Source: Candidatus Nitrosacidococcus sp. I8 (GTDB lineage: Bacteria; Pseudomonadota; Gammaproteobacteria; Nitrosococcales; Nitrosococcaceae). From it: a stretch of DNA of 64,000 nucleotides. Both the position numbers and the translations under genes were made by a program. The stretch is taken from positions 806,001 to 870,000 of the forward strand of contig NZ_OX241534.1 in the NCBI RefSeq assembly GCF_945836005.1. The letters run 5' to 3'. The notes beneath the pieces are model-generated. The model did not search any database, had not been told where the DNA came from, and worked only from the letters and a program-made list of their open reading frames with translations. Of this stretch, positions 45,455 through 58,471 are shown in pieces. The number at the start of each line of letters is the position of its first letter. The stretch's first letter is position 1.

Positions 45455-46831
45455 AAAGATAGGTTAAATACTGAGCACTTCTTCAATTCCGGCTTGTTTG
45501 AGTCGTTGGATACTATTGAGCTTAACCACATCATTAGCAAAGCTATGATCACGAAATACCGCCCGTAAAATGGGATTATCAGGAGTAGCTAACCCAATAA
45601 TGGCTTGTATCGTTTCTAAATTAATATGAAGATCAAAGCAGGCAATCAGGCTATTGTGTGCCACATTGAATGCTTGATGTTGTCCTACTGAAATGGTTTC
45701 AATGGGTAAGGTGAGGGGCAAACCATATTTAAGTAATACTTCATAGAGTAAATCTAATGGGTTGCGATCCGGCAGGATATTATCTACCGCATCTAGTAAA
45801 CTCAGTTCTAATTGCTTTGAATCTGGCTGCCATTTTTTAATGTTAGAGGTATCTAGTTTGAGGACTTTAAAACCAACATCAATGTTCGCTTCTGGATGCT
45901 CTTGTTTAATCTTTTCAGTGGCTCGGCGAATCCGTTCTTTGCCAATCTCCGCAATAGTTTTATAACCTGCTTTTTTAGCTTTAGATTCTGCATTGAGCTG
46001 CATTACTGCATGGGCAGTGGTGGCAGATCCGGAGAAGAAATCGAGGATGGTAGATTGTTGTGGCGTAAAGTGAAAGATTAGTTTTTGAATTAATTCTTTA
46101 GGTTTAACAGTTTCAAATGCTATTTCACTATCTAATAAAGTATCTAATTCAGCACGCCCACTTTCGCTAGTTCCAACATTAGAAAAATGAGACCAAAGCG
46201 GTGCATATTTCTCATTAACCTCATTGCTTTTAAATAGTTTTCTATAAGCTTTTTTATCTTTAATTATTAGTTCATTATTTGCAATTAACTCTTGGCTTGT
46301 TTGATTACTTATAGTCCATCTATAACCATCTTTTAGAGTAGCTTTTGGAATTTCATACACCATTGCTAGTGTTCGTTTCACGCCAATATTTTTTCGTTGC
46401 TGAATCTCCTCTAATCTATATTTACCTTTAGTTAAATCACTATATGGATATTTTTTCTCTGCTATTTTTTCTAAATTAAATGGAAAATGTTCTCTCATAG
46501 CTATTTTTCCATATACAAGAACATATTCTAAGCAGTTCTGTATTTTGAATTTGGCATCACCCGAATTCATTGCTTTTGTTGTAGCAATCCATTCTATATG
46601 TGCATAAAAATTCCCCTCTCCAAAAATCTCATCACAGATTTTCCGCAGATTATGGGCTTCATGATCGTCAATGGAAATAAAAATCATCCCATCTTCTCGT
46701 AATAAATTACGAGCTAGCTTTAACCGAGGGTACATCATATTGAGCCAGTTGGAATGGTAACGACCAGAGGTTTCTGTATTGGTGGTTAAGGGATTACCTG
46801 CTTCATCTTTTTGTCCGGTTAATCGTTGGTA

Positions 46832-46852
46832 ATTGGCAATTGGCAATTGGCA
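46832..46852 (-). repeat. Heptamer repeat in mod (three units)
   Basis: ATTGGCA on the plus strand (TGCCAAT in the coding sense) occurs three times in a row. One or four units would keep the Mod frame; three shift it. Confidence 0.92.
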
Positions 46853-47058
46853 AGGTTATCCTTGAAATTATCCTGATAAATAAAATCTTTGCCTGTGTTA
46901 TAGGGAGGATCAATATAAATCATTTTCACTTTGCCAAAGTAGCTTTTTTGCAACAGCTTGAGCACTTCCAAGTTATCCCCTTCAATATAGAGATTCTCTG
47001 TAGAATCCCAATTGACTGATTCTTCTTTGGCAGGGCGGAGGGTACCTAAGCTAGGCGT

Positions 47059-47108
47059 GGTAGCAATTCGCTTGGCAGCTTCTTTTCTTGCCTAAGTGAA
47101 TTGCTACC
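47059..47108. repeat. Quasi-palindrome at the mod stop codons
   Basis: The arm at 47059-47075 (GGTAGCAATTCGCTTGG) and the arm at 47091-47108 (CCTAAGTGAATTGCTACC) are inverted, with 11 bases matching perfectly and the rest nearly so. Both mod stop codons fall in the second arm. Confidence 0.85.
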
Positions 47109-47293
47109 GTTCATTTTCTGTTTCTATTGTTTCGCCCAATTCTGCCTTAAGTGCTTCAAAATCAATTTTTCCTTCTCGAAAAACACTGGGGAACAATGCT
47201 TTTAACTGTTCAATGTGATACTGAGTTAAATCCATAGACTTTTTAGAAATGGGCGTGGTTTGATCGGTCATGGTAGTTTCTCTTTTTGTTTTT

Positions 47294-54977: not shown

Positions 54978-55564
54978 TACCCTTTTACTAAACCAGTAAA
55001 TCCCATAAATACCATAGACATGATCCCTGCTGTAATTAAACCAATGGGAGATCCTTGAAAAGGACGAGGTACTAGTCCTGCCGCAATTCTTTCTCGCATA
55101 GCTGTAAAGAGAATAAGCACTAAGGAAAATCCTATGGCTGCCCCAAAACCATAAACTCCGGATTCTACTAATCCATGACTTTCTTGCACATTGAGTAAGG
55201 CAACCCCTAAGACAGCGCAATTGGTGGTAATTAAGGGTAAAAAGATACCAAGAGTTCGATACAGTAGAGGACTGATTCTTCTTAATAGAATTTCAGTAAA
55301 TTGCACCACAAAAGCAATGACAAAAATAAAAGTAAGGGTGCGTAAATACTCAATTTTTAAAGGTTGTAGTAGGTAGGTATCAATTAGGTAACTGCTCATA
55401 GCAGATAGGGTTAACACAAAAGTGGTAGCTAGCCCCATCCCTAGGGCGGTTTCTAGTTTTCGAGATACCCCCATAAAAGGGCATAACCCTAAAAATCTAC
55501 TCAATACAAAATTATTAACAAAAATAGTACTGATTAAAATAAAACCATAGGAGTGATCCATCAT
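54977..55564 (-). CDS. rsxA: Electron transport complex subunit RsxA
   Basis: RsxA is a six-helix inner-membrane subunit. The frame is open upstream to 55660, but the ATG at 55564 ([19 protein letters not shown]) matches the family start and leaves the upstream methyltransferase gene clear, so I use it (195 residues). It shows [30 protein letters not shown] (quoted in part: [11 protein letters not shown]) and [14 protein letters not shown]. It is the first gene of rsxABCDGE. Confidence 0.93.
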
Positions 55565-55574
55565 TTTTTTACAT

Positions 55575-56301
55575 TTATATATTCTTTTTGAAAATAAAGA
55601 ATATCTGAGAGTTGAGCCACCATGGTAGTTGTGGGAATGGGGAATAATGCATAGATTCAATTTGGTATTGCCTGCTAATATATTTTTTTAATTCTCTGAA
55701 ATCAAACCCTTTATGAGTAGGTTTTGGATTTGAAGGTCTATCAATAGTAAGACCGAATAATGATTTCAAAAATTCAAAAAAACTATACTCAAATTTTCTA
55801 AACAAAAATATTCGATTTAGTACTTTAGGTAAAAGTGATAATCCATACATGATAGGTACTGAAATTATTAAGATACCATTATCTTGAAGCACTCTATTTG
55901 ATTCTTTAATAAAGCTCTCTAGCTCATATGAATAGAGGTGTTCGCAAACTTCAAATGCAGTAACTATGTTTTGGCTTTTATTGGATAATTCATCAAATGT
56001 ACTAATAAACGTTATTCCACCTAGCTTACTCTCCCTAAGTTTCATGTATGGTTCAATAGCATAGCAATTAAGATCAGGATATTTTTTATATAGTAACTTT
56101 AAAAAATATCCTGTACCTGCACCAAAATCAGTAATATTTCCTAAGAGCTTGGAGCTTGGAGCTTGGAGCTTGGAGCTTGGAGCTTGGAGCGTATTTTAAA
56201 GTAAGCTGTAAGGAATTTTTAATTCGCATACGATGGGTAAACCTAGCAATTAAATTAGGACTATCTATAGTTTGCTTGTTGTAAGGAACTGTCTTATTCA
56301 T
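55575..56301 (-). pseudogene. SAM-dependent methyltransferase interrupted by a heptamer repeat
   Basis: The gene starts at the ATG at 56301 (MNKTVPYNKQTIDSPNLIA) and reads to a GCTCCAA repeat at 56149-56190. Six units put the downstream frame out of register, and the first frame ends within seven codons. Past the repeat the other frame gives ITDFGAGTGYFLKLL (SAM motif I), then FEVCEHLYSYELES and a long C-terminal region ending at 55575. Two, five or eight units would give one continuous protein of about 235-250 residues. No other lesion is visible. It resembles class I methyltransferases seen in glycan and lipid loci. It follows metG by 37 bases. Confidence 0.85.
56149..56190 (-). repeat. Heptamer repeat in a methyltransferase gene (six units)
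   Basis: TTGGAGC on the plus strand (GCTCCAA in the coding sense) occurs six times without interruption. It lies about 37 codons into the gene, between the N-terminal segment and SAM motif I. Losing one unit or gaining two restores the frame. Confidence 0.95.
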
Positions 56302-56338: not shown

Positions 56339-58471
56339 TTATTTTACTTGCATCCCCGGGGTTGCCCCTTCATCAGGGGTTAATAGAAAAATGTCCTTTC
56401 CCCCAGGACCAGCGGCGAGTATCATACCCTCTGAATTGCCAAAGCGCATTTTTCGAGGAGCTAAATTAGCCACCATCACCGTCAACCGTCCAATAAGCTG
56501 CTCTGGCTCATAAGCTGATTTGATTCCTGCAAATACTTGCCGTTTTTCTCCACCCAAGTCTAATTCTAAGCGTAAGAGTTTTTCTGCACCTTCTACGTGG
56601 GTAGCATTGATGATTTTAGCAACTCGGAGATCAATTTTTGCAAAATCTTCATAAGAAACCACCTCACTAATTGGATTCTCAGTCAGTGTGTTTTTATCTT
56701 TGGAGGAGTTAGGTATAGGAAGCGATTCAGTAGGTTTTTGAACAGCAATGCTTTCTTGGTTTGTATTATCAATAATAGAATTTTGGTTAGCTATATTAGA
56801 GTGATGAGTAAGGCGATAATGAAGTTTATAGTGCTCCTGAGTATTTGCCATAATTGCATCTATTTTCCCTGAATCTATTCGTACCATTAAGGGCTTAAAA
56901 TCATGGATAGTATGCTTAAGTAGCGGGGTATGGACATCATTCCAAACTAAAGGAGGGATATTTAGAAAATTTCTTGCTTTTTTAACCGTAGTAGGTAATA
57001 CAGGATCTAGATAAATCATGATCTGACGAAATAGATTAAGCCCTAATGTGCATATTTCTTCTACCTCTTTAGCCTTATCTTTATCTTTAATTAATACCCA
57101 AGGCTGCTTTTCATCAATATAGCGGTTTGCCTTATCAGCAAGTATCATAATTTCTCGCATCGCTGCATTATATTCTCGAGCCTCGTAGAGTTGTGCTATT
57201 TTTTCTTCAACTGCAGCAAATTCTTTAAATAGAAACTCATTAGGTAAACGATCAGAGAGCTGATAATTAAAGTGTTTATTAATGAACCCTGCACAACGGC
57301 TAGCAATGTTGACTACCTTACCTACTAAATCAGCATTTACTTTAGCAATAAAATCATCAAAATTTAAATCTAAATCTTCAATGCTACTATTGAGCTTAGA
57401 GGCAAAATAATAGCGTAAATATTCTGGGTTTAGATGATGTAAGTAGGTTCGAGCTGTGATAAAGGTGCCTCTGGATTTAGACATCTTTTTACCATTAATA
57501 GTTAAAAACCCATGGGCAAAAATCCCAGTAGGTAGACGAAATTTCGCTCCATGAAGCATGGCAGGCCAGAATAGAGCATGAAAATATAAAATATCTTTAC
57601 CAATAAAATGGTAGAGCTCTGCTCTGCTCTCTAATTCCATAAAAGAATCAAAACTAAGCTCTTGCCGATCGCATAGCTGTTTGAGGCTTGCTAAGTAACC
57701 AATAGGAGCATCTAGCCATACATAAAAATATTTTCTTATTGTATCAGGGATAGCAAAGCCAAAATAAGGTGCGTCTCGAGAAATATCCCAGTCTTCTAAC
57801 CCTGTTTTAAACCATTCATTGAGTTTATTAACTGCCTCTGGTTGGAAATTTTTGTTCTCTTCTATCCATCTTTTTAGGAAAGACTCAAAGTGGCTGAGCT
57901 TAAAAAAATAATGCTCAGATTCCCGGGTAACTGGTGTAGTCCCAGAAATTACAGATTTGGGATCAATAAGATCGGTTGGTGAATAAGTCGCACCACAAAC
58001 CTCACAGCTATCTCCATATTGATCAAGAGCATGGCAGCGAGGACAAGTCCCTCGAATAAATCGATCAGGGAGAAAGAGCTGTTTTTCCTCGTCATAAGCT
58101 TGTTTAATAATGCGTGTAGTAATATGCCCCTTATCTCGATTACTTAAATAAATTTGCTCAGAGAGAGCTTTATTTTCAGGAGAGTGGGTACTAGCGTAGG
58201 TATCAAAGCTAATGGCAAATTCAGCAAAATCTGCTTGATGCTCTGCACTATAGCGGCGAATTAGAGCCTCTGGAGTAATTCCTTCATTTTGTGCCCGCAG
58301 CATAATCGGTGTACCATGGGCATCATCGGCACAAACATAATAACATTGATGCCCCCGCATTCGTTGGAATCGAACCCAAATATCAGTTTGGATATACTCA
58401 ACTAAGTGACCTAAATGAATAGAACCATTGGCATAGGGAAGTGCACTAGTGACAAGTATTTTACGGGACAT
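56339..58471 (-). CDS. metG: Methionyl-tRNA synthetase
   Basis: MetG charges tRNA(Met). The class I HIGH motif is [19 protein letters not shown] (residues 10-28), the zinc-knuckle cysteines are [19 protein letters not shown] (about 143-161) and the KMSKSRG loop lies near residue 332. A C-terminal tRNA-binding OB domain begins near residue 610 ([20 protein letters not shown]), so this is the dimeric type. A low-complexity linker lies around residues 560-600. Length 710 residues. Confidence 0.97.

Follow-up and report, generated by a model that had tools for sequence, protein, structure and literature searches.

A heptamer array breaks the reading frame of a probably acquired methyltransferase gene in a putative Nitrosacidococcus-like ammonia oxidiser: most likely a young, possibly reversible knock-out

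The window (the whole 64,000-nucleotide stretch of DNA that was analysed) holds a small methyltransferase gene whose frame is interrupted by a perfect heptamer repeat, and the question raised by this locus is whether the repeat is a switch kept by selection or a recent knock-out. The genome encodes AMO (PF02461), as do its relatives, and the results suggest that the host is a Nitrosacidococcus-like ammonia oxidiser. The features discussed below are collected in Table 1.

Table 1. Coordinates of the methyltransferase locus and of the heptamer arrays found in the genome
Feature	Position	Strand	Remark
metG	56339..58471	-	upstream neighbour
Class I SAM-dependent methyltransferase gene	55575..56301	-	OFF at n = 6; ATG 56301, stop 55575
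Methyltransferase 5' part	56191..56301	-	37 codons, MNKTVPYNKQTIDSPNLIARFTHRMRIKNSLQLTLKY; aligns with the N-terminus of homologues
Heptamer array (GCTCCAA)6.6	56145..56190	-	TRF; 21-nt cycle APSSKLQ stop-free
Methyltransferase 3' part	55575..56148	-	190 codons, LLGNITDFGAGTGYF...; intact from motif I to the C-terminus
rnfA	54980..55564	-	first of the rnf genes
Decayed type III restriction-modification mod gene	~45464-47250	-	frame-breaking array and two TAGs
Heptamer array TTGCCAA	46826..46853	-	~3.3 copies + variant unit; in the decayed mod gene
Heptamer array GATCATA x7.1	L051:11086-11135 (G000:C1:1061086-1061135)		in PEtN-transferase-like (sulfatase family) gene
Heptamer array TAGCCAT x9	L066:7721-7783 (G000:C1:697721-697783)		in PhyH-family dioxygenase gene

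The array was called by TRF with period 7, 6.6 copies, 100% matches and a length of 46 bp, so the six exact GCTCCAA units claimed in the preliminary description are real; the span given there, 56149-56190, is exact for these units, but the array itself reaches 4 bases past 56149 with a partial seventh unit. The chance expectation for a three-unit GCTCCAA pattern in the window is 0, the pattern has no other occurrence in the 1,848,551-bp genome, and a chance product is excluded. The frames on the two sides of the array, of 37 and 190 codons, are both open and are joined only by 2, 5 or 8 units, giving predicted products of 232, 239 and 246 aa, respectively; the frame arithmetic proposed earlier is therefore right, as is the statement that a single slippage step, from 6 to 5 units, would open the frame. 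In the six-unit allele, the upstream frame terminates at a TGA just behind the array, within motif I. Since the downstream frame has no ATG, GTG or TTG start before motif I, the first being found only at 56045 after this motif, no alternative start rescues the six-unit allele. The locus thus combines a pure tandem repeat within an ORF, with a unit that is not a multiple of three, and certain unit counts that restore one open frame without any other lesion, and these are among the features by which an SSR contingency locus is recognised.

The assignment as a SAM-dependent methyltransferase held up: the downstream part matched PF13489 (Methyltransf_23) with 35.7 bits and PF08241 (Methyltransf_11) with 31.7 bits, above the curated cut-offs of 27 and 21.2, respectively, motif I is DFGAGTG, and a homologue model with its PDB matches, which are generic class I methyltransferases, indicates a Rossmann fold. 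No DNA-methylase family was matched in Pfam or NCBIfam, and a phasevarion, that is a phase-variable DNA methyltransferase, was rejected on this ground. About 25 homologues were compared; their alignment covers the whole protein, also the N-terminal part that precedes the array, and their length and motifs agree with those of the window gene, which retains 37 of the 46 invariant residues of the family. This comparison revealed no second lesion, so the gene is OFF by the repeat only, as had been claimed, and was not classed as a pseudogene, for which more than one inactivating lesion was required. The nearest homologues (~40-46% identity) are from Burkholderiales together with a few Streptomyces records, and a search of plasmids and of 369 genomes from the class gave none closer than ~46%; the plasmid collection yielded one full-length relative, in Cupriavidus. 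At the array position, the repeat is missing from the distant homologues, whose linker is constant. In the AlphaFold model of one homologue (L012; mean pLDDT 88.7) this position is a 4-residue loop (37-40) that links the first long helix (16-36) to strand 1 (41-46) directly ahead of motif I, and from this model lengths of five or eight units could be tolerated, the array being in a surface loop. Gene neighbours vary in Burkholderiales, and L012 lies among apparent exopolysaccharide genes; this neighbourhood was considered too weak for assigning a function.

In five other family genomes, metG and rnfA lie directly side by side, with a gap of ~24-34 bp, whereas in the window they are separated by ~775 bp containing just the methyltransferase gene. 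The gene is absent from these five family members, and at a threshold of E<=1e-20 none of 368 other genomes from the class gave a match. The GC content of its core is ~28%, compared with 37% for the window. Given the direct adjacency in the five relatives and the low core GC, the gene is most simply explained as an acquired orphan single gene inserted between metG and rnfA, and, absent as it is from the genomes compared, it looks dispensable. The same array was not found in relatives. Because rnfA begins ~10 bp behind the methyltransferase gene, an OFF allele could have a polar effect on rnf. Scans for promoters and terminators found no signal beyond the shuffled expectation.

Repeats were surveyed in 864 kb, 47% of the genome, sampled in stretches. 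Four perfect heptamer arrays were found, compared with 0 in shuffled sequence of the same composition, and all four (a small number) lie inside frame-broken, patchily distributed genes. The other repeats of at least 18 bp in this sample have periods of 6, 9, 12 or 15, all divisible by three; one array, ATGGGTGGCGGT x10.2 (L059:10474-10596), has a 12-bp unit. A 378-kb sample, mostly of the sister genus, contained one heptamer array, located between listed ORFs.

The genes that host the other three arrays all carry further lesions. In the mod gene, two in-frame TAG codons lie in the 5' part, ahead of the array. The frame of the PEtN-transferase-like gene is broken in at least two more places, and each 21-nt cycle of its array includes a TAG; in the PhyH gene a TAG in the array unit is unavoidable and the C-terminus is truncated. 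No intact homologues of the latter two genes were found in the class at the thresholds used, so that their lesions are read from the reading frames alone; to go by these frames, neither locus can be opened by slippage. With further lesions in all three genes and unavoidable stops in two of the arrays, the three loci would not be able to act as switches, which suggests that heptamer slippage is general and builds up in dispensable genes. As the arrays are perfect although their hosts carry other lesions, expansion or turnover of heptamers appears to have continued in dead genes, and in this genome a frame-breaking array alone is no evidence of a switch.

Several further sequences were noted in the genome. 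A separate mod-like gene (G000:C1:1105877-1106950) lies in a 660-codon open frame. A C10/G10 tract (L070:16468-16477; G000:C1:1111468) precedes a 186-aa gene by ~95 bp in this genome of 37% GC and is a possible promoter-type repeat, and a (GATA)4 tract (L048:15250-15265) lies inside an intact 267-aa gene and is a possible tetranucleotide switch.

How the six-unit state is to be read was weighed against these results. The locus may be a true contingency locus of the Haemophilus kind, in which slippage toggles the gene at high frequency between ON (5 or 8 units) and OFF (6 or 7 units) and the switch is kept by selection. The clean frames without any other lesion, the stop-free unit, the position of the array in a tolerant loop and the ORF-breaking heptamer arrays that H. 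influenzae is reported to carry in hmw1A and the HI1369 homologue (PMC2651432) all agree with it; however, none of the three sister arrays sits in a gene free of further lesions and two of them cannot be reopened, and five units would lengthen the constant linker of the homologues by 10 residues, so we regard selected toggling as possible but doubtful. A broader proposal, that an acidophilic free-living ammonia oxidiser runs a genome-wide ON/OFF generator by heptamer slippage in acquired surface- and DNA-modifying genes, with the methyltransferase, which directly precedes the rnf genes, also modulating rnf expression through polarity, is in our opinion unlikely.

The cell could also really have five units and an intact gene, the sixth being a miscount of the assembly. 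Removal of one unit opens the frame, and the units of a tandem array of 46 bp may be miscounted in what was probably a long-read assembly (PMC9574496). Against this, single reads span an array of 46 bp, the nonsense codons of the mod sister gene are clear and are not count errors, and 0 of 54 orthologues (21,411 residues) were frame-broken, a result by which a general base-level error of the assembly was rejected as well; we therefore judge a miscount to be very unlikely. That translation bypasses the break by re-initiation or frameshifting is hardly to be expected at all. A perfect inverted repeat (arms of 14 bp, loop of 11 nt; 56075-56113; RNA z = -3.4) lies ~30 nt behind the array and its hairpin might help such a bypass, but it is coding sequence (around GYFLKLLYKKYPD) and may be incidental, no recognised slippery site is present, and the lack of a start codon before motif I speaks against re-initiation.

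We therefore hold, with moderate confidence, that the methyltransferase array is most likely a young, possibly reversible knock-out and probably not a switch maintained by selection. In this reading a native GCTCCAAGCTCC sequence (codons APSS), located in the loop that precedes motif I of the acquired orphan gene, would have served as the seed from which slipped-strand replication built up the array, and the six-unit state would be a null (OFF) allele. The genome would have a general tendency to expand 7-bp repeats, which would persist only in dispensable genes. A slippage of one unit, to five, would reopen the frame and make the allele potentially reversible, and of the four frame-broken array genes, only the methyltransferase could still revert. 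Some points count against the knock-out: the lack of a second lesion and the retained invariant residues are as expected if the gene is sometimes ON, and the unit contains no stop, although the same holds for 56% of random heptamers with this composition. The description of the locus as a classic phase-variable gene can accordingly be kept for its clean frames and single break, but not for the switch, of which an array is no proof when the genes of the sister arrays are lesioned. Loss of mismatch repair was rejected as the cause, since a MutS gene is present; loops of 7 nt are poor substrates of MutS.

Breakage of a frame by heptamers within an ORF is already known in H. influenzae, where hmw1A of strain PittAA contains (AATTTTG)14 and the HI1369 homologue contains AACAACC (PMC2651432). 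As here, a perfect 7-bp array sets the frame by its count and the loss of frame fits slippage; in H. influenzae, however, strains differ in their AACAACC count and the genes encode surface proteins of a pathogen (PMC2651432), whereas the present case is an orphan methyltransferase in a single genome. The phase-variable type III mod genes of phasevarions, such as modA (PMC4525171), are similar in having a tandem repeat in a methyltransferase ORF, and the decayed mod gene of the same window has a heptamer array of its own; the gene studied here differs in being of the small class I Methyltransf_23/11 type and not a DNA methyltransferase by domain, and the mod copy in the window is a pseudogene with two nonsense codons. 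According to PMC4692102 and PMC4679880, which cite Mrazek 2007, heptamers are the commonest class of long SSRs in many bacteria and polymerase slippage has been proposed for them, with sets described in Xanthomonas (GGGAATC), Nostoc and Beggiatoaceae (TAACTGA). The likeness lies in heptamers being the main class of long repeats with a period not divisible by three; those described sets are mostly intergenic and share one unit, while the units of the present arrays all differ and each array lies inside a broken gene.

A narrow search of the literature found no paper that combines phase variation, tandem repeats and ammonia-oxidizing bacteria. If the unit count does not vary in culture, the genome would be a clear example of frame-breaking heptamer arrays accumulating in dying genes and would caution against inferring phase variation from one genome; if it does vary, a free-living nitrifier would possess a gene switched by heptamers.
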